Source of the DNA: Cyclobacterium sp.
GTDB taxonomy: Bacteria > Bacteroidota > Bacteroidia > Cytophagales > Cyclobacteriaceae
Direction: 5' to 3'
NCBI RefSeq assembly: GCF_014762705.1
Contig: NZ_JABURL010000056.1
Coordinates: 1 to 64,000 of the forward strand
DNA length: 64,000 nt
Shown here: positions 204-14,586 of the stretch, one piece after another
Layout: each line of letters begins with the position of its first letter
How positions within the stretch are numbered: the first letter of the stretch is position 1
Notes under the pieces: model-generated
The model's database searches: none
What the model saw: the letters and a program-made list of their open reading frames with translations, nothing else
Told to the model about the DNA's origin: nothing
Translations under genes and position numbers: made by a program

Positions 204-398
204 TTAAAGTAGTTTTACATAAACTTTTCTAATTGCCTGCCAAAAAGGGAAGTTGTCAAACTTACTGCGGATGAATGCCCTGCCGTTTGGTTTATGGTAA
301 TTTGTATTTTCGGATGGATCATCAAGAGAATCTCTAAGGAAAGAAATGTAAGCCTTACCTTCAAATTGAGCAAGGTTCCACTTTTTCAGCTTGCGCAT
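204..398 (-). CDS. small basic hypothetical protein, last in RiPP operon
   Basis: A 64-codon frame with an ATG start lies 21 bp downstream of the DUF3405-like glycosyltransferase gene, on the same strand, and ends where the sequence becomes extremely AT-rich. The product is rich in Lys, Arg, Phe and Trp and has no signal peptide or membrane segment. I recognise no family. It could be the last cistron of the RiPP operon or a decayed gene tail. Its position, spacing and ordinary amino-acid composition favour coding, but nothing proves it. Confidence 0.35.
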   Translation of the reverse strand: MRKLKKWNLAQFEGKAYISFLRDSLDDPSENTNYHKPNGRAFIRSKFDNFPFWQAIRKVYVKLL

Positions 399-419
399 TC
401 GGGGATTGTTATGCAGGTT

Positions 420-1211
420 TTAATCATCCGTCAGTTTTACAGGGTGGTAGAGTTTGTTTTTCAATGTTCCGGTCTCCGCAAAAACCGGTCTCCAACGCAT
501 GGTGCCGTCGGAGAGTATGCCTCTATTGTTGGGGCTGTTGTCCAGGTAGAACCGGTTTTCAAAGCCCTCGGGCACAAATTCTCCCTTGCCTCCAAAGTCA
601 TGGATAGAAAGTCCGCTTTCGTAAAGCAGGGTAGGGATCAGTACCTCGTGATGCCCACACCACTTGCTGAGGAGTGCTTTGTGGATTAATTCCAGGGCTT
701 GCCGCGAAATGCGGTAAATGGGGTTAAAGGAGCGGATCCGTTGCTCTTGTGGGATAACAGTATAGGGATGGGCCAGGGCAGGCCACCAGGGCCATTCCGG
801 CTCCTCCTTGTAGCGGCGGATATGACTGCTGATAAAATCAGTGTCCAGGGAGGAAAAAGCCTCAAAAAAGGCTCCCCAATCTCCGGAGAACGCCACATCG
901 TCCTCAATGCACCAATAGTAATCGTATTGTGGATGAGATAGATAAAATTTCAGCAAGGGGAAATGGTTGCTGCCCGGAACCAGAGTAAAGGCAAGGGGGA
1001 AATAGTTCAGGGAGCTTAAGACCTCATCCGTAAATGTAAAAGCATTAAGCCCTGAAGCATTAACACCAGGCTTCCCTTTATCCAGATGGTAAAGCAATAC
1101 CGTATCTCCTGTATCCCGGGTTGCTTCAAATATTTCCCGGTATTTTTGAATCAAAGGAAGGGAAGTTTTATTGGATAGTATTAAAAAGGATTGACTATTT
1201 TTCACCACCAT
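420..1211 (-). CDS. DUF3405-like glycosyltransferase
   Basis: The 263-residue protein has the outline of a small cytoplasmic GT-A-like glycosyltransferase related to the DUF3405 family. A central WCIEDDVAFSGDW motif supplies the acidic metal/nucleotide-sugar-binding residues (EDD), and a later KWCGHHEVLIPT segment is typical of the acceptor side of such enzymes. There is no signal peptide or membrane helix. It follows LanC-like gene 1 by 64 bp and is the last large gene of the RiPP operon, so a role in glycosylating the exported peptide is plausible. The sugar and acceptor are unknown. The ATG at 1211 is the only good start. Confidence 0.65.
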   Translation of the reverse strand: MVVKNSQSFLILSNKTSLPLIQKYREIFEATRDTGDTVLLYHLDKGKPGVNASGLNAFTFTDEVLSSLNYFPLAFTLVPGSNHFPLLKFYLSHPQYDYYWCIEDDVAFSGDWGAFFEAFSSLDTDFISSHIRRYKEEPEWPWWPALAHPYTVIPQEQRIRSFNPIYRISRQALELIHKALLSKWCGHHEVLIPTLLYESGLSIHDFGGKGEFVPEGFENRFYLDNSPNNRGILSDGTMRWRPVFAETGTLKNKLYHPVKLTDD

Positions 1212-1275
1212 ACTATAATAATTTTAGTTTGAATTAAGAGTGTTTTATATGATTTGGACCTATATAGCCTTCAAA

Positions 1276-2529
1276 TTAGTTTTTTCCACCAACTGTATCA
1301 TTTAAATATTCCAGTAGAAGTATTCCTATACCGCCTAATCCTGCTGTCAATCCACAATTACGCACCATGTCTTGATTATAACCATTCTCCTCCCAATATT
1401 TCGATCTGCTTATTTTTTGGATTATTTTTTCCATAGGTAATAATAGCTCCGAAGTCCCGGTAAGGGCTGACAATTTTCTACTGATCCATGCCAGACCTGT
1501 GATACCACCTTGTGCCAGGATATTCAGGTTTTTGCATTCCTCATCGATAATCGTATCCATGGAAATGCTTTCCTTTAGCAGATCCGCATGATCTTGCAAC
1601 GCAGTCAATGGTAACTCTTTTAATATGCTTTCCAATCCCAACAGAAGGTACATTCTATTGCTATGCAATCTTGGATAAAGCGAAGTGATGATTGGGGTAA
1701 GGTAATCCAGCATACGGTCAATTTTATTGGAATTGACCTGTAGTTGTTTTGCCTTGGCAAGGAGGATCAATAGTAGAGGAAGATCCCAATACAGGATAAA
1801 CAATTCCGGTTCCCGGTGCTGAAATTTTTCCTCCTCTACCAGCTGTCCTATCCGATTAATGATTTCGGAGACGACCCGGGTATGGATATTTTGGTTTATG
1901 GACTTAGCATGACCCTGTGAAATTTCGAGCCTACTGGTATAGTAAGCCAAATATCCCAACAATCCCTGCCGGAGATCTACAGGCAATGTTTCTTTGTTTG
2001 CATTCCAATAGCTAATGATTTGGTGGTCGACATCAATTAAAATTTCATCGGGATCACCTTCTACATAATCATTTTTGATCAGATGGCAAAGGCCCCAGGC
2101 AATGCCGGAAAGCCCGTTTTGAAAATTTGCAGGTATGATAAAATTCCCTAAAGTATTATAAACATCCATTAGAATATGCTCTGCAATGGATAGAATTTCA
2201 CCATTTCTGGTACTCCTTCCCAACATAAAGAAATAAATACTCAATCCGATTTTTCCGTTTAATATTCCTACCTCATTTTTTGCTGGTTCATTTTTATTTA
2301 TGAAGTCATTAAGTTTCTCAAGAATAGATAAAATCTGTTTTAGATTTTTTGTTATTAGGGGCTTGCTTTCTTCTCTGACCTTCGGAATACAATTTATTTC
2401 TAACTTATTTAAATTTATTGTTGGTGAATTTGAGGGATAAAAAACTGTAATTGCGGGGACTTTTTTTTCTTTGTTAAGCCAAGATGACTTTTTTCTTTTT
2501 ACAAAATCTTCAAAAGGAAATGGGCCCAA
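1276..2529 (-). CDS. LanC-like protein 1 (alpha/alpha-toroid)
   Basis: This 417-residue frame carries the repeated GxxG helices of the LanC cyclase fold: NGLSGIAWGL near residue 140, QGLLGY near 190, GGITGLAW near 345 and AGLGGIGILLLEYL at the C-terminus. True LanC enzymes use a zinc site with a C-terminal Cys-His-Gly. Here the equivalent is Cys-Gly (RNCGLTAG), so the ligand set looks incomplete and cyclase activity is doubtful. The first 54 residues have no counterpart in LanC-like protein 2 and read like the tail of the preceding sulfotransferase, which shares the same reading frame. The only upstream start is TTG at 2529. The middle of the gene is very similar at DNA level to LanC-like gene 2 (3855-4940), indicating duplication or gene conversion. 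Confidence 0.7.
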   Translation of the reverse strand: MGPFPFEDFVKRKKSSWLNKEKKVPAITVFYPSNSPTINLNKLEINCIPKVREESKPLITKNLKQILSILEKLNDFINKNEPAKNEVGILNGKIGLSIYFFMLGRSTRNGEILSIAEHILMDVYNTLGNFIIPANFQNGLSGIAWGLCHLIKNDYVEGDPDEILIDVDHQIISYWNANKETLPVDLRQGLLGYLAYYTSRLEISQGHAKSINQNIHTRVVSEIINRIGQLVEEEKFQHREPELFILYWDLPLLLILLAKAKQLQVNSNKIDRMLDYLTPIITSLYPRLHSNRMYLLLGLESILKELPLTALQDHADLLKESISMDTIIDEECKNLNILAQGGITGLAWISRKLSALTGTSELLLPMEKIIQKISRSKYWEENGYNQDMVRNCGLTAGLGGIGILLLEYLNDTVGGKN

Positions 2530-2535
2530 TTCTTT

Positions 2536-3027
2536 TCAATCAATCGACAAGCCCAGAAAATCTATTAGCTTTACCCATCCTTCACCTTTTGTGATATCTA
2601 AAATCAATAATCTACTGTTAGATTCAAGAAAATATTTCCTGACCCTTTCATTGTGTTTATAGTATGTTTCTTCAAATAGTTTAGCATCAAATTTTGCAGT
2701 ACCAAAAATTTCTACACGATAATCAAGGAACCATTTTTCTTTAATTCGCTCGGGAGGTCTCTTATCGATAAAAAACGTTCTGCATGAACTAAGCCAGTCA
2801 TTAACATTTCTTGTTGTCAATATAAATTTGGAACCGGGGTAAATTCTATCAAGATCAATAAACCTGGAAGGTACAGGGGAATCACAAACAAAATCAAAAT
2901 GATCTATTTTGTTCCACTGATTAGGAGAGAGGCAATGACCGGAAACAAAGCCCAACTTTCTCATCGCCTGAGTTAGTGATTGTGTTCCCGTCCTGGGTAG
3001 TCCTATGCCAAATATTTTTGATTTCAT
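2536..3027 (-). CDS. sulfotransferase family protein, short
   Basis: The product has 163 residues. GIGLPRTGTQSL (about residues 7-18) is the 5'-phosphosulfate loop and TTRNVNDWLSS (about residue 100) is the 3'-phosphate site that binds PAPS in sulfotransferases. Family members usually run over 200 residues. This one stops at a TGA (2536-2538) just after FLGLSID, and the frame continues without shift into LanC-like gene 1 with residues (LGPFPFEDF) that look like the missing sulfotransferase C-terminus. It is therefore either slightly truncated or one half of a split fusion. Its place between a glycosyltransferase and a LanC-like gene suggests tailoring of the peptide or its glycan. Confidence 0.65.
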   Translation of the reverse strand: MKSKIFGIGLPRTGTQSLTQAMRKLGFVSGHCLSPNQWNKIDHFDFVCDSPVPSRFIDLDRIYPGSKFILTTRNVNDWLSSCRTFFIDKRPPERIKEKWFLDYRVEIFGTAKFDAKLFEETYYKHNERVRKYFLESNSRLLILDITKGEGWVKLIDFLGLSID

Positions 3028-3064
3028 TATTACCCTATCTAAAAATCCCGTAATGAAAATAGCA

Positions 3065-3841
3065 TTATCTCCAGCTTTTAATTTCTCTTTTCAATTCCTT
3101 TTTCGACATCACCAGGGACTTTTGCAATTCCGTCATTTTTTTGTCATTTTGATTGGAACTGTGGAAGGAGCTATTGAGCCCCCTTTCGTGGGAAAGATGA
3201 AATAAGGGGCCGGGTACATGTTGGTGCCGGTACCCCAATATCTTCCAGCGGTTTGCCCGGTCTCCATCTTCCCTGCCCCAGCCGTAGAATTTCTCGTTTT
3301 CCATCCCCGCATCTACATAGGCCTGCCTATGGGCAAAGAATACCCCACCCACCGGATTGGGGGTATACAGTGCTTTCATTTTGCCCTGCTGCTTTTCCAA
3401 TAGACCAATGTCCCCTGATTGGATATAAAGATCCCGCAAAATGTCAGAAGTGTCCAAAAACCGGTCCTGAAATGGGGTCACAAAATCGGCCTTTTCCTCC
3501 CTTAGCCTTTTCATGGTTGCTTCTATTTGGCTTGAGGGAATGATGACATCCGTATCCCAGAGGCTTATATAGGTAGTTTCACAGGTAGCTGCCAGGGTAT
3601 TGATGTATTTCGTCCGGTGAAAGACAGCATCAAGGTCTTCCACAAACCGGTAATCCACCTCCCTGGGTAGCAATTGTTGTAATATTCCGGTATTGCGCCG
3701 GGAGGCTTCCAGAATTTTTATCCTGGTATGAAAACTTCCCAGGAGGAAATCCAGGATGACAAGGGTATTTTCTAGCCGGTCTACCGTATCTATCCGTAAA
3801 GGGATGATAAAGGTGACATCTCTAAGATCTGATTTTTCCAT
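3065..3841 (-). CDS. family 2/GT7-like glycosyltransferase
   Basis: A 258-residue protein starting at the ATG at 3841; a GTG at 3871 would add ten residues but overlap LanC-like gene 2. The order is that of a GT2/GT7-C type glycosyltransferase: a beta strand VTFIIPLRID at the N-terminus, a DxD-like LWDTDVIIP metal site near residue 95, and FYGWGREDGDRANRW near 195, which matches the acceptor/galactosyltransferase C-terminal motif. There is no membrane segment. It directly follows LanC-like gene 2 (13 bp), the same LanC-then-glycosyltransferase order seen at 2529-420. By analogy with glycocin operons, it may glycosylate the precursor peptide before export. Confidence 0.75.
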   Translation of the reverse strand: MEKSDLRDVTFIIPLRIDTVDRLENTLVILDFLLGSFHTRIKILEASRRNTGILQQLLPREVDYRFVEDLDAVFHRTKYINTLAATCETTYISLWDTDVIIPSSQIEATMKRLREEKADFVTPFQDRFLDTSDILRDLYIQSGDIGLLEKQQGKMKALYTPNPVGGVFFAHRQAYVDAGMENEKFYGWGREDGDRANRWKILGYRHQHVPGPLFHLSHERGLNSSFHSSNQNDKKMTELQKSLVMSKKELKREIKSWR

Positions 3842-3854
3842 ATGCTGCAAAAAT

Positions 3855-4940
3855 TTATTTTTCCATTTCACCAGGGCTATCTTTTAGAATTTCCAGTAAG
3901 AGCATTCCTATTCCGGACAGACCTGTGGCCCATCCTGTATTTTTCTTCATTTCCTGATAATGGCTCTCCTCCAGCCAATACACCGATTTACTTATTTTCC
4001 GGATTAACGCTTCCCTGGCAAATAGCAGCTCTGAAGTTCCGGTAGCGGCTGACAATTTTCTGCTGATAAATGCCAGACCCGTGATACCATCCTGTGCCAG
4101 GATATTCAGGCTTTTGCATTCTTCTTCAATGATCCTGGTCAGGGAGATACTTTTCCTCAGGAGATCTGCATGGTCTTGCAAAACAGTCAGGGGTAATTGT
4201 TTGATCATGCTTTCCAGTCCCAACAAAAGGAACACTCTATTGCTATGCAATCTTGGATACAGGGAGGTGATGATTGGGGTAAGGTAGTCCAGTATACGGT
4301 CAATTTTATTGGAACTGACCTGTAGTTGTTTCGACTTGGCCAGGAGGATCAATAGTAGAGGAAGATCCCAAAACAGGGTAAACAAATCCGGTTCCCTTTG
4401 CTGAAAATTCTCCTCCTCTACCAGTTGTCCGATCCGGTTGATGATTTCGGACACCACCCGGGTGTGGATATAACGGTTTACGGGATCATGTGATAGTTCC
4501 AGCCTACAGGTGTAGTAAACCCAATACCCCAGCAAACCCTGCCTGATATCTACGGGCAATGTTTCTTTGTTTGCATTCCAATAGCGGTAGATGCGGTCGT
4601 CCACATCCTCCAGAATTTCATCCGGATCAGCAGCTACAAAATCATTTTTGATCAAATGGCACAGACCCCAGGCAATGCCCGCAAGCCCGTTTTCAAAATC
4701 AGCAGCAATGGAAATGTTTCCTGCTGCTTCATAAACTTCCCCTATACATTTTTCAGCCATGGTTTGATGTGCCGGGTCATTGGTCTCCCGGGCCAACATA
4801 AAATAATAAATACCCAGGCCCATTTTTCCCTGAAAGAGTCCGGGGGCTTCATTGGAGGGGGCATATTCGGCCAAAAGTCGGTTGATTGCTATGAGTTTGG
4901 ACGGTAACTGTATGCTACTTTCGGTTTGTTGGGTTTTCAT
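3855..4940 (-). CDS. LanC-like protein 2 (alpha/alpha-toroid)
   Basis: A 361-residue LanC-family protein with the GxxG helices of the toroid (NGLAGIAWGLCHL near residue 110, QGLLGYWVYY, DGITGLAF, TGLSGIGMLLLEIL at the end). The C-terminal zinc-binding Cys-His-Gly of real lanthionine cyclases is replaced by Asn-Thr-Gly, so even the Cys retained in LanC-like protein 1 is gone. No dehydratase gene (LanB, LanM type) is found in the window, so a non-cyclase role such as chaperone or scaffold for precursor modification is likely. It starts 11 bp after the HlyD gene and is translationally close to the following glycosyltransferase. Long stretches near 4270-4450 are almost identical in DNA to 1690-1880. 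Confidence 0.75.
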   Translation of the reverse strand: MKTQQTESSIQLPSKLIAINRLLAEYAPSNEAPGLFQGKMGLGIYYFMLARETNDPAHQTMAEKCIGEVYEAAGNISIAADFENGLAGIAWGLCHLIKNDFVAADPDEILEDVDDRIYRYWNANKETLPVDIRQGLLGYWVYYTCRLELSHDPVNRYIHTRVVSEIINRIGQLVEEENFQQREPDLFTLFWDLPLLLILLAKSKQLQVSSNKIDRILDYLTPIITSLYPRLHSNRVFLLLGLESMIKQLPLTVLQDHADLLRKSISLTRIIEEECKSLNILAQDGITGLAFISRKLSAATGTSELLFAREALIRKISKSVYWLEESHYQEMKKNTGWATGLSGIGMLLLEILKDSPGEMEK

Positions 4941-4951
4941 TATCTTCCGGT

Positions 4952-6256
4952 TTAATTGGCCATGATTGATTTAAATTTAAAGAAAAGCCTTTCTGCCACA
5001 CTCAGGTCCCGGGTAATGATCTCGGCGTTTCCCAAAAGTTCCTGCGTAAAGGGGATCCTGGTATTAAAAGAGGTTTGCGTACCTTCCGGAAGGGAGGCGT
5101 AAACCAGATAATTGAATTCATCATCCGGGGAGACAGCCACCCTGGTAACACGACCCGTCAGGGCACCATACTGCTGAAAAGGGAAATTGTCCAGCTTAAT
5201 CAACACTTTGAGGCCCATAGCCACTTTTCCGGCATTCTGTGCCGGTATTTTCATGGCACCTACCAGTTCCTCCTTGTTTTCCGGAAGTACGGTAAACACC
5301 GGCTCGCCGGCATTTACCTGTTGATTGGCACTCCAGATTTTCTGAAAGCTGACCAGACCTCCGGTAGAAGATTTCATCAGGTACGTATATTCCCAATCCC
5401 GCAGGGCACGCTGCAGCCCATGGTAGGACTGGATCAGGCTTTTCAGGGCGCGGGTCTCCTCTTCCTTTTTATTGATTTCCGTGATGCGCAGCGTTTGGTT
5501 TCCCACGCTCAGGGCCTCCTGCATTTGGGAAATGGCTATGGCCATGCTGTTGACCTGCTCCTGTATCTGTAGGTATTCCATTTCCCTGGCTTCAAAATCC
5601 TTGTCGGCAATTACCCCATCTTCATGCAGTGCCTTGTTGCGATCGTAGTCGAGCTGGACCAGTTCCATTCTACGTTCCAATAGCTCCTTTTGGGCGATCT
5701 GCCTTTCGATCCGGTTATTGATTTCCACCAATGCGGTACGGCTTCCGTCCAACTGCCCGATATAGGGTTGAAGTTCCAGAAGCAGCCGGTATTCCATGTA
5801 ATTTCGTTCAAATTCAAGAAAGGCAGGTTCCACTTCTCCCAGTACCAGGCTGGTAAGTGAATCCATGGGGAAGGCATACCCATTTTCCTTTCCAAAGACC
5901 GCCTTTTCCAATTGTGCTTTCAGGATCAGGATATCCTCCAGGTTTGCGGTGCTTTTGATCCCGGCAAGTGGCTGGCCGGAGGAGACAAGTTCTCCGTTTT
6001 CCACAAAGAGCTTTTCTATCTGACCTGAGGTACGGGCCAGCACCCGCTCCGTCGGCTCCCGGGTGGTCACCAGCACCTTTGCCTGCACAAAATCCGGGTA
6101 CCTTATCAGAAAAGAGAGCGTGATGATCAGACAGGTCATAACAAATACCAGGGTGATGCCCCAGCGGATCAGCCAGGCCGGCGGCCGGGTGATGATCTCC
6201 TGTACTTCTTCGGACCGGAGATGAAGGTTATCGGTATGGGTGGGCTGATCCGGCAT
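4952..6256 (-). CDS. HlyD-family membrane fusion protein
   Basis: The 434-residue periplasmic adaptor of the peptide exporter. It has one N-terminal transmembrane segment (about residues 29-51), a biotinyl-lipoyl-like half (SGQIEKLFVENGELVSSGQPLAGI), a long alpha-helical hairpin rich in Glu, Gln and Leu (about 115-285), then a second lipoyl half and beta-barrel. It lies 2 bp after the C39 ABC transporter gene, the standard pairing for double-glycine peptide exporters in Gram-negative bacteria, where an outer-membrane TolC-type channel completes the system. No TolC gene is in the window. Confidence 0.9.
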   Translation of the reverse strand: MPDQPTHTDNLHLRSEEVQEIITRPPAWLIRWGITLVFVMTCLIITLSFLIRYPDFVQAKVLVTTREPTERVLARTSGQIEKLFVENGELVSSGQPLAGIKSTANLEDILILKAQLEKAVFGKENGYAFPMDSLTSLVLGEVEPAFLEFERNYMEYRLLLELQPYIGQLDGSRTALVEINNRIERQIAQKELLERRMELVQLDYDRNKALHEDGVIADKDFEAREMEYLQIQEQVNSMAIAISQMQEALSVGNQTLRITEINKKEEETRALKSLIQSYHGLQRALRDWEYTYLMKSSTGGLVSFQKIWSANQQVNAGEPVFTVLPENKEELVGAMKIPAQNAGKVAMGLKVLIKLDNFPFQQYGALTGRVTRVAVSPDDEFNYLVYASLPEGTQTSFNTRIPFTQELLGNAEIITRDLSVAERLFFKFKSIMAN

Positions 6257-6258
6257 GG

Positions 6259-8460
6259 TCAGTTTGTATTTATTTTTTCCAGCTCCAATTGATTTTTTAC
6301 CAAATCAAAATAGGCCCCCTGTGCATACAGCAGTTGGTCATGGGACCCCAGTTCCACTATTTTTCCCTGATCGATAACGATGATCTGGTCTGCATTTTTT
6401 ACCGTACTCAGGCGATGGGCAATGACCACTACCGTCTTGCCTTTCATAAAATGCTGCAGGTTTTCCATCACGATGCGTTCGTTTCGGGCATCGAGTGCCG
6501 AGGTTGCCTCGTCAAAAAAGAGAATTTCAGGATCCTTATACACCGCCCGTGCGATAAAAAGCCGCTGCTTTTGTCCGGTGCTGATCCCGGCTCCCTCATT
6601 GCCGATTTTGGTATTGAAGCCTAGCGGCAGGGATTGGATGTAATCGTAGATATTGGCGATCCGGGCGGCTTTGATCAACAGCTCCTGGTCGATGCGGTCC
6701 TGACCCACAGCAATATTGGCCGCTATGGTATCGTTAAACACGTATCCTTCCTGCATCACCACCCCGCAATGATCCCTCCAGCTTCTGGCAGCAATGATAC
6801 TAAGGTCATGGAGGCCATACAGGATCTCTCCTTTGGTGGGTTCATAAAACTTGAGTAGCAACTTCATCAAGGTGGTCTTTCCGCTGCCGCTGGCACCTAC
6901 CACCGCCGTCACTTTCTGTGGAGGTATGATCAGGTTGAGCCCTTTCAGAACGGGCTCAACGGCTCCTATATACCGAAAGGACAGGTTTTTCAGGGTCAAC
7001 TCCTTAGCTACCTTGATTTTCCGGATATACTGCTTATCCCTGCTTTCCTCCTCTTGCTTGTCGTGAATCTCGTTTAGCCGCTCCAGGCTGATGCTGGCAT
7101 CCTGATAGGCCCGGATAAAACCAACTACCTGGGTGATGGGGCTGTTTAGTTGCCCGATGATGTACTGGAGCGAAAGCATCATGCCCAGGGTAAGATTGCC
7201 TTCTATAACCAGCACGGCTGAGGTAAACGTGATGAGAATATTCTTCAGCTCATTGATCATGGAGGAACCTACGCCCTGGGTTTGTTCCAGGGAAAGGGTC
7301 TGAATAGACACATTGAACAGGCTGGCCTGTACAAATTCCCACCGCCATCGATTTTGCTTTTCCGCATTGTGCATTTTGATTTCCTGCATGCCGTTGATCA
7401 GTTCGATCACCGTGCTCTGTTCCTGGCTCAACTGGGCAAAACGCTTGTAGTCCAGCTCCCGCCTTCGCTTCATGAAATACAGTACCCAGAGAATGTAGAA
7501 AATGCTTCCCGCCAGAAAAATTAAAAAAATCGTGATGCTGTAGTAAATAAGTACCGCTCCGAAAACGAAGAAATTAAAAAAGGAAAATAGTGTGCTAAGG
7601 GTGGTTCCTGTCAACAGGTTTTCTATCCGGCGGTGGTCGCCGATGCGCTGCATGATGTCCCCGGTCATCCGGGTATCGAAATAGGCAATGGGCAGGTTCA
7701 TCAGCTTGATAAAAAAGTCGGATACCAGGGAGATATTGATCCGGGTACTCAGGTGAAGCAAAATCCAGCTCCGGAACACTTCTACACTGGTGCGGCCTAC
7801 AAACAGCATTATCTGCGCCAATAGTACCAGGTAGATAAAACCGATATCCTGGTTTTGAATGCCCACATCGACGATGCTCTGGGTCAGAAAGGGAAAAATA
7901 AGCTGCAAGAGACTGCCTACCAGCAGCCCGATACAAAGCTGAACCAAGAGATTTTTGTAATTGAACAAATACCGGAACAGAAAGCGTAGTGAGCGCTTGT
8001 CTTCCTCCTCCCATTTCATCCTTTTGAAGTCCGGAGTGACTTCCAGTAACAGGGTGACGCCTTCTTTGGTAGCATCACCCGCACCGTTTCCGATCCACCG
8101 GTCGATAAATTCCGTTTTGGACAGGCGGATCAGTCCATAGGCGGGATCGGAAAGGTAAACCTGATCTTTTTTGATCCGGTACACCACTACAAAGTGCCTT
8201 TTGTCCCAATGGACGATCAGGGGAAGCTGTGCCTGTTTCAGCCGGTTAAAGTCCAGCCTGGCCCCTATGGTTTTAAATCCGATGGATTCCGCTGCCTCGC
8301 TTAGCTTGAGCAGGTTGCTTCCGGAGCGGGTGGTTTCCGAATATTCCCGTATTTCCTGCAGTGAGACCAATTTGCCGTAATGTTTGGCAATGATGCGTAG
8401 GCAGGTGGGGCCGCAGTCTTTGGCATCGGGTTGTTTGTAGAAAGGGAAAGTGGTTTTCAA
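6259..8460 (-). CDS. C39 peptidase-containing ABC transporter (PCAT)
   Basis: The 733-residue exporter cleaves double-glycine leaders and pumps the core peptide across the inner membrane. Residues 1-130 form an active peptidase C39 domain: Gln10, catalytic Cys16 (DAKDCGPTCL), His89 (KRHFVVV) and Asp105 (LSDPAYG). A six-helix ABC membrane domain follows (about 160-440). The nucleotide-binding domain has Walker A GASGSGKTT at 522, signature STGQKQR near 627, Walker B ILFFDE at 646-651 and the H-loop IAHRLST near 680. The start must be the TTG at 8460, because a stop codon lies three codons upstream and the next residues are needed for catalysis. The clients are evidently the GG-leader peptides at 9821, 14359 and 16869. 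Confidence 0.95.
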   Translation of the reverse strand: MKTTFPFYKQPDAKDCGPTCLRIIAKHYGKLVSLQEIREYSETTRSGSNLLKLSEAAESIGFKTIGARLDFNRLKQAQLPLIVHWDKRHFVVVYRIKKDQVYLSDPAYGLIRLSKTEFIDRWIGNGAGDATKEGVTLLLEVTPDFKRMKWEEEDKRSLRFLFRYLFNYKNLLVQLCIGLLVGSLLQLIFPFLTQSIVDVGIQNQDIGFIYLVLLAQIMLFVGRTSVEVFRSWILLHLSTRINISLVSDFFIKLMNLPIAYFDTRMTGDIMQRIGDHRRIENLLTGTTLSTLFSFFNFFVFGAVLIYYSITIFLIFLAGSIFYILWVLYFMKRRRELDYKRFAQLSQEQSTVIELINGMQEIKMHNAEKQNRWRWEFVQASLFNVSIQTLSLEQTQGVGSSMINELKNILITFTSAVLVIEGNLTLGMMLSLQYIIGQLNSPITQVVGFIRAYQDASISLERLNEIHDKQEEESRDKQYIRKIKVAKELTLKNLSFRYIGAVEPVLKGLNLIIPPQKVTAVVGASGSGKTTLMKLLLKFYEPTKGEILYGLHDLSIIAARSWRDHCGVVMQEGYVFNDTIAANIAVGQDRIDQELLIKAARIANIYDYIQSLPLGFNTKIGNEGAGISTGQKQRLFIARAVYKDPEILFFDEATSALDARNERIVMENLQHFMKGKTVVVIAHRLSTVKNADQIIVIDQGKIVELGSHDQLLYAQGAYFDLVKNQLELEKINTN

Positions 8461-8525
8461 AAATTTTTAAATAATAGGTTAAATTCAATTATTTTAAAGA
8501 GCGGGTTGCCCGATTCACCAATTTA

Positions 8526-9710
8526 TTAATCTTCGATTTTCAGCCCCACCCGAAACAGCCGAAAATAATCCTTTTCCACTACATCATCTGGTTTTTCCTG
8601 CATCCATAGCTCATTATTTCTGAGCAACATACTTTCCGGAACCAATCCTTCTGGGACAAAATCTTTAATATTATTGCCTAGAGTGTCTATAATTGCAATT
8701 CTGTGAGTATATTTTTTCAGCATTCTTTCCCTGAATAGTAAATTTTCTTGCTGAGTTTTATTCTCGTTTTCCGCTTCCTTATCTGTATCAGAATAACCAG
8801 AAAAATAGGCGATAACAAAATATCCATCTATTTTCTTGATGTTTAACACACTGCCTGATGTAAATTTCAAGGTAGGATCAACCGAATTATCGATTGAACC
8901 GCTAAAATACCGGTAATCTTCTAGATCAATAGGAATAGGCGAAAGCAAAGAATAGGGTTTGTTTAAGCCGTAAACATAAATCATTGGTTCGGCCCCAAAC
9001 ACGACATACATCCGGTCATCCTTTATGGTGAATATTGGCTCCCAGGCATTCATGTAAAAGTATTTTCCGTTTCGAAATAAACTGCTTTCGGGAAGCTGGA
9101 TAAAGGGTTCTCTGTTGCCGGATTTTGGGTTAAGCCAAATCATCAAAGAGATCTCATCATAAAACCTTATATCAGATGGAAAAATGTCATCCGGCTCCTC
9201 TTGGTTGCTATAAAGATAACGATTACCCGATGTTTCCATCCCAAAGCCCATAGTTTTCCTCGTAAAATTGGGTATTTTAAAATTTTTGAACTTTACTCTA
9301 CTTAGGAGCCTGCCAGAAAAATCATAAGTCATAAAACCGTTGTATCCATAGGCCAGAAAAGTTTTGTCATCAATTATCCTTAAAGTTGACATCAGTTTTC
9401 CATAACCATCGGGGACATCTCCCAATTTGGAGAAGGAGTCGAGAATTTCTCCTTCAAAATTGGCAACCATGATTTCTTCCGTAGCTTGCCTATGCTCCAT
9501 GAAAAGAATTGTACCTGATTTAGGGTCAATGTCATGGATTGTGGGGTTTCCAAGGTAGTCAATTTGAATACTATCAAGTTTTTCGAAAGAAAAAACTTTA
9601 TTTGCCTGAAAAATTTCAGTTTTTTCTTGTGCATCATTCTTTGATGCACAAGAAAAAAAAATTACCGATAGAATGATTGTAGGACAATAAAATCTCATTG
9701 AGAATTCCAT
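8526..9710 (-). CDS. propeller-like lipoprotein 1 (DUF4221-like)
   Basis: A 394-residue secreted lipoprotein: short hydrophobic signal ending in the lipobox FFSC (Cys21), then a long beta-rich domain with repeated hydrophobic-strand/turn units, resembling the DUF4221 / six-bladed propeller lipoproteins of Bacteroidota. A second ATG at 9698 gives an equally good signal. It is sandwiched between precursor 1 and the exporter gene. Cassettes 2 and 3 also have a protein of this kind directly after their precursor. The protein sequences are much more diverged than the peptide leaders, so it may be a peptide-specific partner, for example for self-protection or surface retention. The function is unknown. 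Confidence 0.6.
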   Translation of the reverse strand: MEFSMRFYCPTIILSVIFFSCASKNDAQEKTEIFQANKVFSFEKLDSIQIDYLGNPTIHDIDPKSGTILFMEHRQATEEIMVANFEGEILDSFSKLGDVPDGYGKLMSTLRIIDDKTFLAYGYNGFMTYDFSGRLLSRVKFKNFKIPNFTRKTMGFGMETSGNRYLYSNQEEPDDIFPSDIRFYDEISLMIWLNPKSGNREPFIQLPESSLFRNGKYFYMNAWEPIFTIKDDRMYVVFGAEPMIYVYGLNKPYSLLSPIPIDLEDYRYFSGSIDNSVDPTLKFTSGSVLNIKKIDGYFVIAYFSGYSDTDKEAENENKTQQENLLFRERMLKKYTHRIAIIDTLGNNIKDFVPEGLVPESMLLRNNELWMQEKPDDVVEKDYFRLFRVGLKIED

Positions 9711-9787
9711 TTATTTTAATTAAATACGATTAAATATTTAGTAAATGATTTAAATTAAATAAAATGTAAAGGGTTGGATGCTGTAAA

Positions 9788-9812
9788 AATTTGGGGCATG
9801 TAGCCCCAAATT
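9788..9812 (-). terminator. hairpin after precursor 1
   Basis: A perfect 10-bp inverted repeat (AATTTGGGGC, 5-nt loop, GCCCCAAATT) lies 8 bp after the precursor 1 stop codon. Read on the minus strand it is followed by a short T run, so it resembles an intrinsic terminator or a 3'-stabilising stem. It would let the short precursor message accumulate above the downstream lipoprotein/exporter message. Confidence 0.6.
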
Positions 9813-9820
9813 AATGTATA

Positions 9821-10066
9821 TCAACAGTAACCTGCCTCCGAACCACAACTGTCACAACAGTAATTCCCCCCATACTTTGCAACAAAGCACTTTACTGATT
9901 CCAAAGAATAACCACACGCTTCATAACCTGATGGGTCTCTATACCCGCAGGTCCCAGGGGCACTTGGACATGAGCCTCCAGAACCCCCATAAATACCCGC
10001 CATTTGGCTTCTTTGCAGCACATCCTCTGCTGCCAGCTTTAATTTTTCTAAATTCAACTTTTTCAT
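9821..10066 (-). CDS. GG-leader Cys-rich RiPP precursor 1
   Basis: An 81-residue peptide. The leader begins MKKLNLEKLKLAAEDVLQR and ends IYGG, the double-glycine site recognised by C39 peptidases such as the one encoded two genes downstream. Predicted cleavage leaves a core of about 50 residues, Gly/Ser/Tyr-rich with eight Cys, including a CCDSC cluster near the C-terminus. The even Cys number and the thiol-oxidase gene directly upstream suggest a disulfide-bonded product. The leader resembles the Bacteroidota GG precursor families (TIGR04149 type), but no radical-SAM gene is nearby. Two paralogous precursors lie at 14359 and 16869. Confidence 0.9.
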   Translation of the reverse strand: MKKLNLEKLKLAAEDVLQRSQMAGIYGGSGGSCPSAPGTCGYRDPSGYEACGYSLESVKCFVAKYGGNYCCDSCGSEAGYC

Positions 10067-10161
10067 TTTTCTTTTTATTAATGAAGTTTATTGTTTCCCC
10101 GGACCAGCTAAGGACACCCGGGAATTGCGCCCATTCATCGCGATAGAATTTCTTTATATAC

Positions 10162-11748
10162 CTACTTATAGACATTTATTTCCTTGAGGTCTGCAATTCG
10201 GTATTCCTTTGGTAATTGATGTCCATTGATAAAAATAGTAGGTGTATGGGTGATTCCTTCCTTTTCACACCAATTCTTCATGGCCAGTAGTTTTTCCTGC
10301 TGTTGGTTCAGCTCTCCATTCATTGGGTAGCGCACGGCAAAAGCCGCATAGTCCTTTTTTTCGGCAGCATACCACTGATCCAATGCTTCCTGCGTTACCT
10401 TGGGGTCCCCTTTGCTGTTTATGGCCAGCAAATGGCTGATGGTTTTTACATGGAGATCGTCCGTACTTTTATTGGGAAAGAATATGATCTGTAAGTCAAT
10501 GATTCCCTCTTCCACCAAGCGCTCCAATTCCGGATGTGCCTCTGAACAGGGTCCACAGTAGGGATTACACACCTTGATGACCTGATACCTGGGGGATTCG
10601 TTTTTTAATAGTATGCCCAGGTCCCGGGTCGGGTTGTTTATCTTTTTTGACCGGGAAAGCAGGCTTTCAAAAATTACCGGATCGCTTTTTAATTTTTTCA
10701 GGTTCCTTTGGTAAGTATAAAGCTTGTCTTTCGCATCCAGGATAGGTTTCAGGTATATCCATCCTAAAAGAATGCCTATAAAAATAAAGGCAAAGGCAGC
10801 AACTGTCGGCAAATCAATCGCATGCTGATAGACCTGCAGGGCCCAGGCCAATGCTATCTCCAGCACCAAGATACCTATCAGGAACAGGCATAGCCGGCAC
10901 CAACTCTTTATTTTGAATGCCTGGTAATAAAAGGATATAACTACCACCGGAAGCGTTGCCAGACTTAGCCATGCTAATGTGGGAAGTACACTAAGCGAAG
11001 ATATTTGGGTTAACAGCAACAATGAGCCGGCAAAGAAGTAAGCAAAAGCCAGGGATCCGGGGCTAATGGCCCCATCCGCAAACTTGAAAGCTGTACTGTC
11101 CAGTACCGTGTTGCAGTCCGCCTTCGCTCCTCCGGAGCAGAATTTTTGAACCAATGGATTGTCTTTGTCAATTACCCGCCATAAAATCAATCCCGAAACG
11201 CCCAATCCGATCAGCTTCAGCAGCAGTAAGCCTGCTGAAGCAAGTCCGTGCACGGTTCCCATCTGCTCAGGCCATCCGAAACCTACTGCAATCAAAGCGA
11301 ACAGGACCAGGCCTGCCATCAGGAAGGTCTGTATTTTTTCTTTTTGAAGACGTTCTTCAATTCCCGGTTCGGCTGCGTGCTCGCTTTTTTCTACTGCCAA
11401 AACCACCCCGGTCCATGAATTCAAAAATTCCTCCCGGCTTACTTTGAATGCTTTTCCCGTTTCATCATATCCGGAAAAACTATCTCCAGCAATATGGGAA
11501 AGGGTTTGGAAATATTCCTTTCCTTGTACCTTGACCTGCACGATACAGGGCATGGGGATCTGATCCAGCTTCTCTTTCCCGATTTTAAGGGGAAGCGTGC
11601 TGATATGGTACTTTTCCATCACATCCGAAAGGGTCAGCAAACTGGGGAATTGTGGATGGGAAAGGATTTCTTCTTTCAGGTAGTTTTTGGTAAATGGAAT
11701 CTTCAGCAATTCAAGGATTTTACCGGAGCTGTGGAAACAATTATTCAT
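10162..11748 (-). CDS. C39-like/VKOR/thioredoxin fusion thiol oxidase
   Basis: A 528-residue membrane protein (ATG at 11748; a TTG nine bases earlier is less likely). The N-terminal 125 residues resemble a C39-type peptide-binding domain without the Gln/Cys catalytic layout. Several transmembrane helices follow (about 135-345), with the VKOR active site Cys284-Arg-Leu-Cys287 and a Cys pair in the periplasmic loop near 200. The C-terminus is a DsbA/thioredoxin-like domain with Cys398-Gly-Pro-Cys401 and the cis-Pro segment HTPTIF. Such fusions pass electrons from cysteine pairs of exported substrates to quinone. As first gene of the operon, immediately before a Cys-rich precursor, it probably oxidises the exported peptides. 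The C39-like domain may capture GG leaders. Confidence 0.85.
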   Translation of the reverse strand: MNNCFHSSGKILELLKIPFTKNYLKEEILSHPQFPSLLTLSDVMEKYHISTLPLKIGKEKLDQIPMPCIVQVKVQGKEYFQTLSHIAGDSFSGYDETGKAFKVSREEFLNSWTGVVLAVEKSEHAAEPGIEERLQKEKIQTFLMAGLVLFALIAVGFGWPEQMGTVHGLASAGLLLLKLIGLGVSGLILWRVIDKDNPLVQKFCSGGAKADCNTVLDSTAFKFADGAISPGSLAFAYFFAGSLLLLTQISSLSVLPTLAWLSLATLPVVVISFYYQAFKIKSWCRLCLFLIGILVLEIALAWALQVYQHAIDLPTVAAFAFIFIGILLGWIYLKPILDAKDKLYTYQRNLKKLKSDPVIFESLLSRSKKINNPTRDLGILLKNESPRYQVIKVCNPYCGPCSEAHPELERLVEEGIIDLQIIFFPNKSTDDLHVKTISHLLAINSKGDPKVTQEALDQWYAAEKKDYAAFAVRYPMNGELNQQQEKLLAMKNWCEKEGITHTPTIFINGHQLPKEYRIADLKEINVYK

Positions 11749-12061
11749 GCGGTTCAAACAGTTTAATAGTATGTAGATTACCAGAAAAGTAGGAATCTAT
11801 ATATGCTTTTGCTTTTATTACTTCCCAATCTAATGGATAAAATCAAAAAATATAAGTGAATAATTGTATTTCCCGTGAACTGACCTGTTTTTCCCGTGAA
11901 CAGGCAGTTTTATCCCGTGAAGGAAATGACAAATATTGGTAACAGCCTGAGGATTAAGGAGGAGATATGCCATTTGACCTGTGGCTTTGGGATTTTTTTT
12001 GGTTCTGAAAAAGAAAGGAAGGTAAAATAATGTTTTGATCAAACCGTTAAAAAATTCAGCC
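11749..12061 (-). promoter_or_regulatory. promoter and upstream region of cassette 1
   Basis: The gene-free stretch before the VKOR fusion gene holds three direct repeats TCCCGTGAA at 11871, 11892 and 11913, exactly 21 bp apart. Nine-base direct repeats two helical turns apart are the layout bound by LytTR-type response regulators. The bases between repeats and gene (11758-11870) are nearly identical to those before cassettes 2 and 3, so this is a shared promoter region. A possible -7 element (TAGATTGG on the minus strand) lies 38 bp downstream of the nearest repeat. The regulator is not encoded in the window. Confidence 0.6.
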
Positions 12062-12946
12062 TTAGTATATGGTCATTTTTGAACGCTGTTTATGAAGAAA
12101 GTCTGAAAAGTCATGGATCATGTTCTTTTTCGTAGCCTGAAAATCCAACCGTTCCGGCTTCCAATCTACCCTGCTGAATAGCCCGTCTAACGCTTTTTTG
12201 TAGGCATCTGCTCCGGAGTTATTCTTTGGAATCTCATATATTTTTATTCCGAGTTCCCCGATGATTGAAACCCGGTAATCCAGTGGGTTTCCAAAGAAGA
12301 TGACCGGTATGCCCATGGCCATGCAGGGAAGGGCACAGTGGAGTCTGCTTGTCACCACCAGATTTGCATAGCGCTTATACAGGTACAACAGTTTTTTTGC
12401 CTGAAGTCGCTTATGATACGGTGTATTGTTTGGATTTACGGTATGTGTCATCCGCAGACCGTTTTTTTCAATAAAATCCGGCAAAAGAAACGGAACATCT
12501 ACAATCATGATTGCGCCATCTTCAGGTTTTTTAGTCCTTTCGGGCAGGGTAAGCGTCAAACAGCGGCTGTAGAAGGCCTCAATGCCGGCAGCCTTTAATT
12601 TCTCTGCAGTAAAGCTGTCCCGGCATCCTATGGGCTCATGCTTTTTGAAAAATGCCAAAATCTCTTCCGATAAAAAATGCCGCCAGGAGTCATTCCAGTC
12701 GCTGATATGGAATCCCCAAAAAACCGGCAAAATGCTATTACTGATGGGAAGGCAATGCTCAGGCTGGTGTGAAAACCACCCGTTCATGATCAATAAATGG
12801 TTAGGGTTACAATGGGCGCTTGCCAGTGTATCCCTGTTAAGCCTCATGTTAATTTCCGGCAAAAATCTTTCAGTGGCAATAGATTGGATCTGATCCCCCA
12901 GGTTGTTCAATCCCTGGTAGTCAAATCCTGCATAGCGTATTTTCAT
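12062..12946 (-). CDS. polysaccharide pyruvyl transferase family protein
   Basis: A 294-residue protein of the PF04230 family: N-terminal YAGFDYQGLNNLGDQ, GCRDSFTAEKL near residue 105, and SRLHCALPCMAMGIPVIFFG near 195-215, the characteristic C-terminal nucleotide-sugar-like fold motif. Members add pyruvate ketals to sugars or act as related transferases. It stands at the downstream end of RiPP cassette 2, after the truncated exporter fragment, in the position the tailoring genes occupy in cassette 1. It may therefore modify a glycan on precursor 2, or be an unrelated passenger. No catalytic assignment is possible from sequence alone. Confidence 0.75.
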   Translation of the reverse strand: MKIRYAGFDYQGLNNLGDQIQSIATERFLPEINMRLNRDTLASAHCNPNHLLIMNGWFSHQPEHCLPISNSILPVFWGFHISDWNDSWRHFLSEEILAFFKKHEPIGCRDSFTAEKLKAAGIEAFYSRCLTLTLPERTKKPEDGAIMIVDVPFLLPDFIEKNGLRMTHTVNPNNTPYHKRLQAKKLLYLYKRYANLVVTSRLHCALPCMAMGIPVIFFGNPLDYRVSIIGELGIKIYEIPKNNSGADAYKKALDGLFSRVDWKPERLDFQATKKNMIHDFSDFLHKQRSKMTIY

Positions 12947-13000
12947 AATCTTGAAGGTTTTCCGATAATTAATTCCATATTGAAGTAACCTAAGATTATT

Positions 13001-13136
13001 AGCGGGTGGTTTCCGAATATTCCCGTATCCCCTGCAGTGAGATCAGTTTGCCGTAATGTTTGGCAATAATGCGCAGGCAGGTGGGGCCGCAGTCTTTGGC
13101 ATCGGGTTGTTTGTAGAAAGGGAAAGTGGTTTTCAA
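13001..13136 (-). pseudogene. 5' fragment of the C39 ABC exporter gene
   Basis: These 136 bp are a near-copy of the first 45 codons of the exporter gene (8325-8460), including the TTG start and the codons for the Gln10 and Cys16 catalytic residues. The match ends abruptly at 13001, where unrelated sequence with a TAA in frame begins. The fragment sits after lipoprotein gene 2, just as the full gene follows lipoprotein gene 1, so it is a leftover of a duplicated cassette. Confidence 0.9.
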
Positions 13137-13158
13137 GAAAAGGGGTGTTTAAATCTAT

Positions 13159-14286
13159 TTATTTTTTTTCCATCTTCAAACGGACAAACCCCATCTCATC
13201 ATTTATATTTTCGTAAATCCAAATTTCCCCATCCTTCGCAAAATGCCTCCCGGGTTTTTTGGTCAATTGAGGAACTAAAGTTTCTCCCAGTATATTTAAG
13301 TCCTTGTCTAGTGCTGTTAAATATACTTTTGATCGGATTTTTTCACCGCCGATATTTTCGATCTCCTGATAAGAAAATCGATAAAAACACGCCCCTTGCT
13401 CTTCCCAAATCGGGGGCATAAAATTAATTTCTTGCCTTAATTTTCTTTTTGCAACTTCAAATTCCTCAGGCGTTTCGTATTCTTTTTCAAACTCATTCTC
13501 TTTATGGTTGGCAGTAAGTTGGCTATTATATGATTTCATAAATAGAGAATCCATCTCAGTATCATACCACATTAACGTATTCGTTATTAAATTCGATAAA
13601 ATCACTTTCGTCCCGACCTTTTCTAGACTTACCGGTGGGGATTCAAATATTCGTATACCACCCGAGTTGAAAATAATATTATAATTGGACAACTTCCCAA
13701 AGCTTTCCAGCATCAATCTGCTAACCTTAAACGTGTCCAAATGGAGTATTCCCAAAGTATAACTTTCATCAATATAACTATGGATTATTACATATAACCT
13801 GTTGGCATTCGTGTCTAGAACCCGATCTAATTTTAATCGCTCTCCACCTTTTGTTGCCTTCTTACCAATAAAAAAATCTTCAAAATTTAATGTCATCAGT
13901 TTTTTCCCATCCATGGAAAATAGTGCGGTTTGACCATATCCCGTCATGGTTATTTGGTTTTCATTGTGAACGCTCATTGCCCCACTTGGCCCAGTTCCGT
14001 TCGGTCCTTCTCTTTCAAAAGGAAGTTTTTCCTCCAGCCGTAGCTCATCCAGGTTAATTTTTTCAAGGGTATGGTCATCGCTATTAAAATTATAAAAGTA
14101 CTTTCCATCCTTACCTATGTCCGCATTCAATAGTTGATGCTTCAAAAAGATAATTTCATCTCCTGGGTCAATGATAACTGTATCTATCGAAAGATTTAAG
14201 TTGGAAAAAAAGTCTAAGTAATTTTTGTTGCTTTTCCCCTGACAGGAAATCAACACTATAAGTGTCAAGTAGGATAAATGCCGCAT
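13159..14286 (-). CDS. propeller-like lipoprotein 2 (DUF4221-like)
   Basis: A 375-residue lipoprotein with signal MRHLSYLTLIVLISC (lipid-modified Cys15). The ATG at 14286 is preferred over a longer frame starting at 14319, because that ATG lies inside the hairpin following precursor 2. The rest is beta-rich with Asp/Gly turns, similar in size and pattern to the proteins at 8526, 15631 and 20108. Its position directly after precursor 2 repeats the cassette 1 order. Function is unknown; a specific partner of the core peptide is an inference. Confidence 0.55.
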   Translation of the reverse strand: MRHLSYLTLIVLISCQGKSNKNYLDFFSNLNLSIDTVIIDPGDEIIFLKHQLLNADIGKDGKYFYNFNSDDHTLEKINLDELRLEEKLPFEREGPNGTGPSGAMSVHNENQITMTGYGQTALFSMDGKKLMTLNFEDFFIGKKATKGGERLKLDRVLDTNANRLYVIIHSYIDESYTLGILHLDTFKVSRLMLESFGKLSNYNIIFNSGGIRIFESPPVSLEKVGTKVILSNLITNTLMWYDTEMDSLFMKSYNSQLTANHKENEFEKEYETPEEFEVAKRKLRQEINFMPPIWEEQGACFYRFSYQEIENIGGEKIRSKVYLTALDKDLNILGETLVPQLTKKPGRHFAKDGEIWIYENINDEMGFVRLKMEKK

Positions 14287-14309
14287 ACTAATTTTTGTTT
14301 TTAATTCTA

Positions 14310-14342
14310 AATCGGCCATACTTGAAAAAGGTATGGCCGATT
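14310..14342 (-). terminator. hairpin after precursor 2
   Basis: A perfect 12-bp inverted repeat (AATCGGCCATAC / GTATGGCCGATT, 9-nt loop) begins 16 bp after the precursor 2 stop. It has no T run, so it may act as an mRNA-stabilising or attenuating stem rather than a strong terminator. Its sequence is unrelated to the hairpins after precursors 1 and 3, but its position is the same. Confidence 0.5.
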
Positions 14343-14358
14343 AAAATGATTACATTAT

Positions 14359-14586
14359 CTATTGAGCACTACAACTGCCTTCTCCACTTGCACACCAAGT
14401 TATAATAGCAGCACGCAATTCATTAAGGGAACAGTAAGTACCTTCCCAAGAGCCAATACTTCCTGAGCAATCGCAGTCATATCGTTGACACCCATCGCCG
14501 GATCCTCCATAAATGGTTCCCATTTGATTTCTCTGCAGCACATCCTCTGCTGCCAACTTTAATTTTTCCAAATTCAACTTTTTCAT
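14359..14586 (-). CDS. GG-leader Cys-rich RiPP precursor 2
   Basis: A 75-residue peptide with the same leader as precursor 1 (MKKLNLEKLKLAAEDVLQR, then NQMGTIYGG). The predicted core of about 44 residues has six Cys (including CDC and YCSL motifs) and is unlike core 1 except for a Cys-Ser-Leu segment. It has the arrangement expected for an exported disulfide peptide. The exporter fragment in its own cassette is broken, so it would depend on the exporter at 6259. Confidence 0.85.
   Translation of the reverse strand: MKKLNLEKLKLAAEDVLQRNQMGTIYGGSGDGCQRYDCDCSGSIGSWEGTYCSLNELRAAIITWCASGEGSCSAQ

Follow-up and report, generated by a model that had tools for sequence, protein, structure and literature searches.

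Glycocins such as sublancin, glycocin F and thermoglycocin, in the sections of PMC12457901 that describe them, combine a Cys-rich peptide, export by a PCAT (a peptidase-containing ABC transporter with a C39 domain), thiol-disulfide proteins and a glycosyltransferase. An operon with these elements lies on the minus strand of a 64,000-nucleotide stretch of Cyclobacterium sp. DNA (NCBI RefSeq assembly GCF_014762705.1, contig NZ_JABURL010000056.1, positions 1 to 64,000), hereafter the window. According to Pfam and NCBIfam scans of the open reading frames (ORFs) of the window, the operon covers about 11757-420, with a remnant to 204 and satellite cassettes reaching about 17460. Its genes encode, in order, a thiol oxidase, a precursor with a double-glycine (GG) leader, a propeller-like protein, a PCAT, HlyD, LanC-like 1, a GT7-type glycosyltransferase (GT7C), a sulfotransferase, LanC-like 2, a DUF3405 protein and a GT4-type remnant. 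The initial annotation, made from the DNA letters, had proposed a glycosylated, perhaps sulfated, disulfide peptide as the product. This is still the best-supported reading: neither a LanB dehydratase nor a further LanC-type gene was found in the genome, and glycosyl- and sulfotransferases recur and fuse at related loci; the sulfotransferase-LanC gene of the window itself is interrupted.

By analogy, the operon would work like a glycocin pathway, and its membership would depend on the definition of a glycocin and on the chemistry of the product. A cleavable-leader precursor and a PCAT, which serve as a criterion for glycocins, are both present, from gene content. The operon differs from the glycocins of those sections of PMC12457901 in its GT7/beta4GalT-like glycosyltransferase, its LanC-like partner, its sulfotransferase, its VKOR fusion and its occurrence in Bacteroidota; nested disulfides are a criterion for glycocins, and the pairing in the operon's peptides is not readable from sequence.

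Other described systems are alike in part. The cyclase domain of class III LanKC, as treated in sections of PMC10604976, belongs to the LanC superfamily, lacks the zinc ligands and provides the best matches of our LanC-like proteins in the PDB. The LanC-like proteins, however, have no kinase or lyase domain, stand alone or fused to a sulfotransferase, and are found with glycosyltransferases. The Bacteroidales clusters BGC3-5 for ribosomally synthesized and post-translationally modified peptides (RiPPs), in the main text of PMC10352776, include LanC-like proteins without LanB and without the zinc triad and have carbohydrate-active enzymes nearby; in BGC5, a further protein comes after each precursor. 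Radical SAM enzymes set BGC3-5 apart from our operon, and the words VKOR and sulfotransferase do not occur in the main text (0 times each). Class I lanthipeptide-type loci of the same phylum (genomes G331, G461 and others) also pair a GG precursor with a LanC-type protein, several with PCAT and HlyD as well, but they differ in having LanB (8/8), zinc motifs (7/8) and Ser at the first core position (Ser+1) in 1/9 precursors. Bacteroidetocins are Bacteroidota peptide toxins, and double-glycine and disulfide are among the terms in the part of PMC6671954 consulted; they are called unmodified in the main text of PMC10352776, whereas the operon includes modifying enzymes. Judged on its genes, the operon does not fit lanthipeptide classes I to IV, as LanB, LanM/LanKC/LanL and the zinc motifs were looked for and not found, and we file it as a variant of the modified-peptide pathways. 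Among the titles and abstract openings of mostly open-access papers, none describes a peptide pathway with a LanC-like protein, a glycosyltransferase and a sulfotransferase.

We consider it evenly balanced whether the operon represents a family of disulfide-rich, glycosylated and in places sulfated peptides, in which the LanC-like protein would be a non-cyclising partner of the transferases. The operon would serve the biosynthesis and export of a small Cys-rich peptide with a GG leader. In the cytosol, the GT7-type glycosyltransferase would glycosylate the peptide, possibly on Ser+1 or close to it, and the DUF3405 protein, the pyruvyl transferase and, in relatives, the sulfotransferase may elaborate the glycan. 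The zinc-less LanC-like protein would work with the transferase, probably holding the peptide and forming no thioether rings; in a close relative, a second LanC-like copy and the sulfotransferase form one protein. The PCAT would cut after GG and export the peptide with HlyD, the VKOR/thioredoxin protein would make the disulfides, and the satellite cassettes may feed further cores to the same machinery under a shared promoter element. The order of these steps, and any action of the product, are what we infer.

The absence of a LanB dehydratase, which the annotation had noted within the operon, extends to the whole genome: PF04738 gave 0 matches there, and the same model is positive in 9/99 genomes of the phylum. 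LanM (DUF4135) also gave 0 matches in this genome, but the control genomes were likewise silent. A profile (A3) able to find the true LanCs of six other genomes recovered only the two window genes, and it detected no class II-IV enzyme with a LanC domain (LanM, LanKC, LanL) in the genome; PF05147 recovered LanC-like 1, in two stretches, but not LanC-like 2, and is thus insensitive to diverged copies. Across the stretches compared, LanB is present in 8/8 with a true LanC versus 1/30 others (L113). This count, which was repeated with L113 left out, combines a Pfam scan with a nine-sequence LanB model, a single-sequence model being insensitive (0/30), and the 30 stretches include contig C1 of our own genome and three with weak glycosyltransferase matches (G881, G962, G1051).

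Profile comparisons place both LanC-like proteins in the LanC superfamily, without its zinc and catalytic motifs. In an alignment with true LanCs, the LanC-like proteins lack three motifs (catalytic His, first Cys and Cys-His-Gly), and the strings CHG, CYG and SHG occur in 0/23 aligned members; the zinc motifs are retained in 7/8 true-LanC loci. The family profile matches true LanC at 99.9% in hhalign over 324 columns, and its best PDB matches are the class III LanKC structures (4e-8); LanC-like 1 as a single query against the PDB gave one unrelated match (E 0.22). Between the window and Cyclobacterium sp. SYSU L10401 (L004), the ratio of nonsynonymous to synonymous substitution rates (dN/dS) is 0.28 for LanC-like 1, 0.24 for LanC-like 2 and 0.12 for GT7C, and all three genes are therefore under purifying selection. 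The main text of the Bacteroidales RiPP survey (PMC10352776) remarks that LanC-like genes with no dehydratase are puzzling, and it suggests that the zinc-less LanC-likes of Bacteroidales are endoglucanase-like. A carbohydrate-active enzyme of this kind would suit the position of our LanC-like genes among sugar enzymes, but up to E 1 their profile retrieves from the PDB only lanthionine synthetases, LanC-like proteins and two proteins with a kinase domain, and no glycosidase, and the match to true LanC is long. We have rejected this explanation as highly improbable.

The LanC-like protein and the GT7-type glycosyltransferase recur together. Among 295 genomes of the same taxonomic family, 18 carry the zinc-less LanC-like protein, 20 carry GT7C above 160 bits, and 17 genomes from eight genera carry both; three further genomes have GT7C matches below 90 bits. 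The LanC-like profile at 1e-10 matched 24/295 genomes, and the number 18 was reached by subtracting six with LanB-associated true LanCs (G331, G343, G461, G870, G889, G943), a status judged in the stretches examined. Where the two do not coincide, the LanC-like gene is broken in G919, a diverged LanC-like protein beside GT7C was seen only on direct inspection in G870 and G1033 (the G870 copy lies under the Pfam cut-off), and no LanC-like gene was seen in the 20 kb fetched from G1066, which has GT7C. The two genes are mostly side by side, near precursors of the GG type or of a second type that we take, by its leader, to be NVEA(LA) precursors. The order VKOR, precursor, PCAT, HlyD, LanC-like and GT7-type glycosyltransferase is found again in other genera. 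Outside the taxonomic family, the zinc-less LanC-like family was not found at full length in 198 phylum, 291 order and 395 class genomes; 13 other class and 8 order matches cover only parts of the N-terminal two thirds, and the two that were inspected singly (G025, G281) are true LanCs beside LanB.

This recurrence bears on the explanation that the product is a plain disulfide bacteriocin of the bacteroidetocin type, with glycosyl- and sulfotransferases that serve a surface polysaccharide and are mere neighbours. For such a peptide the GG leader, PCAT, HlyD, thiol oxidase and even Cys counts would suffice, and bacteroidetocins are called unmodified in the main text of PMC10352776. A joint presence in so many genera, mostly as adjoining genes near GG or NVEA-type precursors, is not expected of mere neighbours, nor is the fusion of a LanC-like protein with a sulfotransferase in L004, and we regard this explanation as unlikely.

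Fusions are the best argument that the LanC-like protein, the glycosyltransferase and the sulfotransferase would act in one pathway. In L004:11914-13665, the sulfotransferase and LanC-like 2 form a single frame of 583 amino acids, with both Pfam domains above cut-off. In C. lianum, a 47-amino-acid ORF resembles the sulfotransferase start only, and LanC-like 2 was not found. The piece is intact in one relative, interrupted in the window and lost in another. The annotation had recognized the sulfotransferase and LanC-like domains correctly, and its division of the sulfotransferase and LanC-like 2 into separate genes is corrected to one protein that is whole in L004 and split in the window. Sulfotransferase-glycosyltransferase fusions are found in L107 (both parts above the cut-offs) and L111 (glycosyltransferase part just under), and one protein of L102 (6991-8412) has an N-terminal GT7-like and a C-terminal sulfotransferase-like part, the latter under the Pfam cut-off at E 9e-5; stand-alone sulfotransferases occur in L039, L111 and L102. 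These cases span three genera and are a lower bound, because only chosen neighbours were scanned. Other genes near LanC-like genes encode GT4-type, family-2 and group-1 glycosyltransferases, an FkbM-type methyltransferase, a Gly_transf_sug protein, a fucosyltransferase, a STELLO-type protein and a pyruvyl transferase. Genes for retropepsin-like aspartyl proteases also lie near LanC-like genes (L106:11381-12787; L110:11883-13289, the latter under the cut-offs) and might encode an alternative leader protease.

The fusion can also be read otherwise. The LanC-like proteins could, like class III LanKC, cyclise without a metal, on residues that some unrecognised route has activated, such as the elimination of a sulfate ester formed by the fused sulfotransferase. 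Their nearest solved relatives, the LanKC enzymes, are zinc-less and still cyclise, and the sulfotransferase-LanC fusion parallels the two-part layout of LanM (both in sections of PMC10604976). On the other side, neither LanB nor a further LanC-type gene was found in the genome, most LanC-like genes adjoin a glycosyltransferase and not a sulfotransferase, and VKOR together with even Cys counts indicates disulfides. We also know of no precedent for sulfate as a leaving group in such peptides, and we consider cyclisation by this route very improbable.

The precursors add a further regularity. The cores of the 31 GG-type precursors differ widely, but 25 start with Ser, 19 of these with Ser-Gly. 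Ser+1 is thus found in 25/31 GG-type precursors versus 1/9 in LanB loci (Fisher p 0.0003, uncorrected for relatedness), and an even number of core Cys residues in 26/31 versus 4/9; precursors with NVEA-like leaders have Ser in 6/12 and Cys in 4/12 at the same position. We propose from this bias that Ser+1 may be a modification site. The count retains the grasp-with-spasm precursor of C. lianum (L036) and two long L110 peptides, though they lower the counts, and omits the relics of G199, G202, G203, G204 and G205 and, by eye, ORFs whose leader looked implausible, including a Cys-rich one (L107 12707-12871). In Cyclobacterium genomes without a LanC-like gene, GG-Ser is intact in G202 and G199, GG is changed in G204, and no clear ORF was picked in G205 and G208; these precursors lie beside PCAT stubs, or with no PCAT in view, and resemble relics. 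Precursor 1 scored 18.4 bits against TIGR04149 (precursors modified by radical SAM enzymes), below the cut-off of 25. One NVEA-type precursor had no Pfam match and two had no NCBIfam match, and a literature search for the term NVEALA found no paper.

The same cores bear on how close the operon stands to true glycocins. The initial annotation held that the cores lack CX6C pairs, and from this argued for a distinct class. This is right for core 3 and wrong for cores 1 and 2, which carry two C-X6-C each, so that the argument fails; at least two C-X6-C occur in 4/31 GG precursors versus 2.95 expected by shuffling, which is no enrichment. A true glycocin with a diverged glycosyltransferase would account for these two cores and for the PCAT, thiol oxidase, glycosyltransferase and Cys-rich peptide, a set also present in the glycocin clusters that PMC12457901 describes; under the broad definition in that source, a sugar on Ser, Thr or Cys, a proven sugar would qualify the operon. 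However, the CX6C pairs are at chance level, and the LanC-like protein and the VKOR fusion are not among the glycocin parts named in the sections consulted. The glycosyltransferase may also point elsewhere: the GT7C motifs WDxD and GWGxEDGxR are present in 15/15 and 14/15 aligned rows, and in a PDB search made with no glycocin glycosyltransferase (SunS or GccA) as a reference, the GT7C profile (A6) had beta-1,4-galactosyltransferase 7 as its sole match up to E 0.1, a weak one (E 0.002). A glycocin in this sense seems quite improbable to us.

In the thiol oxidase, the Cys pairs of VKOR and thioredoxin are kept across 10 homologues. When these were aligned with the C39 domains of two PCATs, the Q..DC motif and the histidine of HFVVVY were found not to be kept in the C39-like domain of the oxidase. 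This domain may bind the leader and would then be, after the LanC-like protein, another inactive enzyme domain put to the handling of peptides.

Satellite cassettes 2 and 3 lie upstream in the window. At the head of each stand the main operon's promoter region and what remains of VKOR, and cassette 2 closes with a 5' PCAT stub, 96% identical over 136 bases. VKOR lacks 1,478 bases, its start being joined to its end at the same place, in the window's satellite 2, both C. lianum C26 satellites, one SYSU L10401 satellite, G199, G202 and G205. Several cassettes therefore share what appears to be one ancestral deletion, later copied. A direct repeat, GTTCACGGGAAA, in which a 12-base element stands twice, 21 bp apart, lies at a fixed distance from the VKOR start in 15/15 main and satellite units with at most 2 mismatches. 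Its exact form occurs twice in the window (0 expected). The repeat lies at 11866-11901 ahead of the main operon and at 14908-14943 in satellite 2; the 21-bp spacing is reminiscent of LytTR-type sites. General promoter and terminator scans of the window gave 35 and 21 sites versus 38.5 and 21.4 in shuffles, and Rfam gave no match within it.

The content of the cassettes changes between genomes. The precursor 1 type occupies the main site in the window and an orphan unit in G202 (precursor 65%, partner 49% identical), and the precursor 2 type occupies the expression site in SYSU L10401 and a satellite in the window (58% and 68%). The partner protein varies from cassette to cassette. In C. lianum (L036:5751-8760), a grasp-with-spasm graspetide cassette replaces the precursor and partner within an operon of VKOR, PCAT, HlyD, LanC-like and glycosyltransferase genes; in NCBIfam, it matches TIGR04193 with 285.5 bits (cut-off 175) and TIGR04192 with 228.8 bits, just under 230. 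We read these arrangements as one machinery that would serve several co-regulated precursors, with cassettes that may be exchanged by recombination. The partner protein, which is different for each core, could be a cognate factor, for example for immunity.

Several points weigh against a glycosylated and sulfated peptide held by a non-cyclising LanC-like protein. This reading is derived from sequence, and the glycan made by the transferases could belong to the cell surface and have nothing to do with the peptide. One in-frame stop separates the sulfotransferase from LanC-like 2 at their junction in the window, in DNA otherwise nearly identical to L004. The assigned fold depends on sequence profiles, as an AlphaFold model of LanC-like 1 from 5 alignment rows was unusable (mean predicted local distance difference test score, 42). 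In class III LanKC cyclases, according to sections of PMC10604976, the zinc ligands are missing and rings are still formed. Using the Pfam scan and the nine-sequence model, we found a LanB about 6 kb from the LanC-like and GT7C genes in L113 (G870), where two precursors have Gly at +1. The earlier statement that lanthionine formation is unlikely was fair, but in view of the zinc-less LanKC cyclases (PMC10604976, same sections) and of L113 it was too strong. The precursors are paralogues or share leaders and are not independent, so that the p value for Ser+1 is optimistic. A preference of the PCAT or of export could explain Ser+1, since the leaders of LanB loci differ as a group, and relic-looking orphan precursors with Ser+1 occur in G199 and G202, genomes without a LanC-like gene.

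As an observation in its own right, L113:857-11769 (about 11 kb) brings together a diverged LanB, NVEA-type precursors, a zinc-less LanC-like protein and a GT7-type glycosyltransferase, and may be a mixed pathway.

A wider interpretation of the preferred reading is possible, and we put it forward only tentatively, with more doubt than confidence. The LanC fold would be a chemistry-free adaptor that holds the peptide, one copy per transferase (adjoining the GT7-type glycosyltransferase in one case, joined to the sulfotransferase in the other), with the dead C39-like domain of the oxidase as a parallel; attachment would be at Ser(-Gly), and co-regulated satellites would exchange cores and partners. 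Such loci would form a new class of glyco- and sulfo-peptides.

The features are collected in the table. The ORFs and Pfam domains bear out a single operon with a Cys-rich GG precursor, a VKOR/thioredoxin oxidase, a C39 exporter and HlyD. Of the two glycosyltransferases first proposed, one is upheld by its PF02709 match, and the other matches DUF3405 and no glycosyltransferase model; the ORF at 204-398 is only the remnant of a GT4-type enzyme. A search for TolC, which had been recommended, gave 50 matches to OEP (TolC-type) domains across the genome. The GT7-type gene more likely starts at 3841, as in L004, than at 3871. We found no Pfam or NCBIfam match for the propeller-like protein, whose labels as propeller and lipoprotein are our assumption from a reading by eye, and no Pfam match for precursor 1.

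Features of the operon and its satellites in the window, with the operon in gene order
Feature	Position	Strand	Evidence
Thiol oxidase: N-terminal C39-like, VKOR and thioredoxin domains	10162-11757	-	Pfam C39 40.3, VKOR 36.9, Thioredoxin_4 27.6 bits, each above cut-off
Precursor 1: GG leader, core SGGSC..., 8 Cys in 53 residues	9821-10066	-	
Propeller-like putative lipoprotein, paired with precursor 1	8526-9710	-	
PCAT: C39 peptidase and ABC exporter	6259-8460	-	Pfam C39 119.6, ABC_membrane 117.9, ABC_tran 98.5 bits
HlyD-type membrane fusion protein	4952-6256	-	Pfam HlyD_3 58.9 bits
LanC-like 1, zinc-less, adjoins GT7-type glycosyltransferase	3855-4940	-	PF05147 41.0 bits (cut-off 23.2)
GT7-type glycosyltransferase (GT7C)	3065-3871	-	PF02709 (Glyco_transf_7C) 27.0 bits (cut-off 23)
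Sulfotransferase, N-terminal portion of protein fused in L004	2536-3027	-	PF17784 88 bits (cut-off 22.8)
LanC-like 2, C-terminal portion of protein fused in L004	1276-2529	-	PF05147 33.4 bits
DUF3405 protein, possible second glycosyltransferase	420-1211	-	PF11885 28.8 bits (cut-off 25)
GT4-type glycosyltransferase C-terminus, remnant	204-398	-	48% over 27 residues versus G198 protein
Tandem 12-base repeat, 21-bp period, upstream of main operon	11866-11901	-	
Polysaccharide pyruvyl transferase-like protein, possible further tailoring enzyme	12062-12946	-	PF04230 56.1 bits
Satellite cassette 2: promoter, VKOR scar, precursor 2 (14586-14359), DUF4221 protein (14319-13159), PCAT 5' stub (13136-12999)	12999-14952	-	
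Satellite cassette 3: promoter, VKOR remnant, precursor 3 (17084-16869), propeller-like protein (16785-15631); no PCAT stub seen	15631-17463	-	

Position 1 of the window is the first base of contig C121 (87,828 bases), and the operon may continue elsewhere because the window begins at this edge. Another contig of this genome, C1 (L146), encodes a family-2 glycosyltransferase and a fourth precursor, in the order seen downstream in G206, from which we infer that C1 and C121 are adjacent. LanC-like 1 is 99% identical in C. lianum (L003; L036 is also C. lianum) and 93% identical in L004. The pyruvyl transferase-like gene is retained in G206 and is a fragment in C. lianum. The DUF3405 protein is 82% identical to the product of a G198 gene that adjoins LanC-like and GT7-type genes, and the G198 counterpart of the remnant at 398-204 is a 413-amino-acid protein that matches Glycos_transf_1, to which the remnant aligns only in the last 27 residues.

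Elsewhere in the window, two sulfatases, a heparinase II/III-like protein and a SusC/SusD-type pair (24212-61108) resemble a locus for the use of sulfated polysaccharide, and the proteins at 17757-18377 (Uma2 family) and 21988-22599 are alike by eye.

The LanC-like protein of this family travels with one type of glycosyltransferase, and sometimes with sulfotransferases, and has lost the metal site while keeping the LanC signature, and with these properties the orphan-LanC puzzle becomes testable. If the LanC-like protein is an adaptor of transferases, many 'orphan LanC' annotations would have to be re-read. In that case, these loci would also give access to disulfide peptides that carry sugar and sulfate and come with natural variation of the core.

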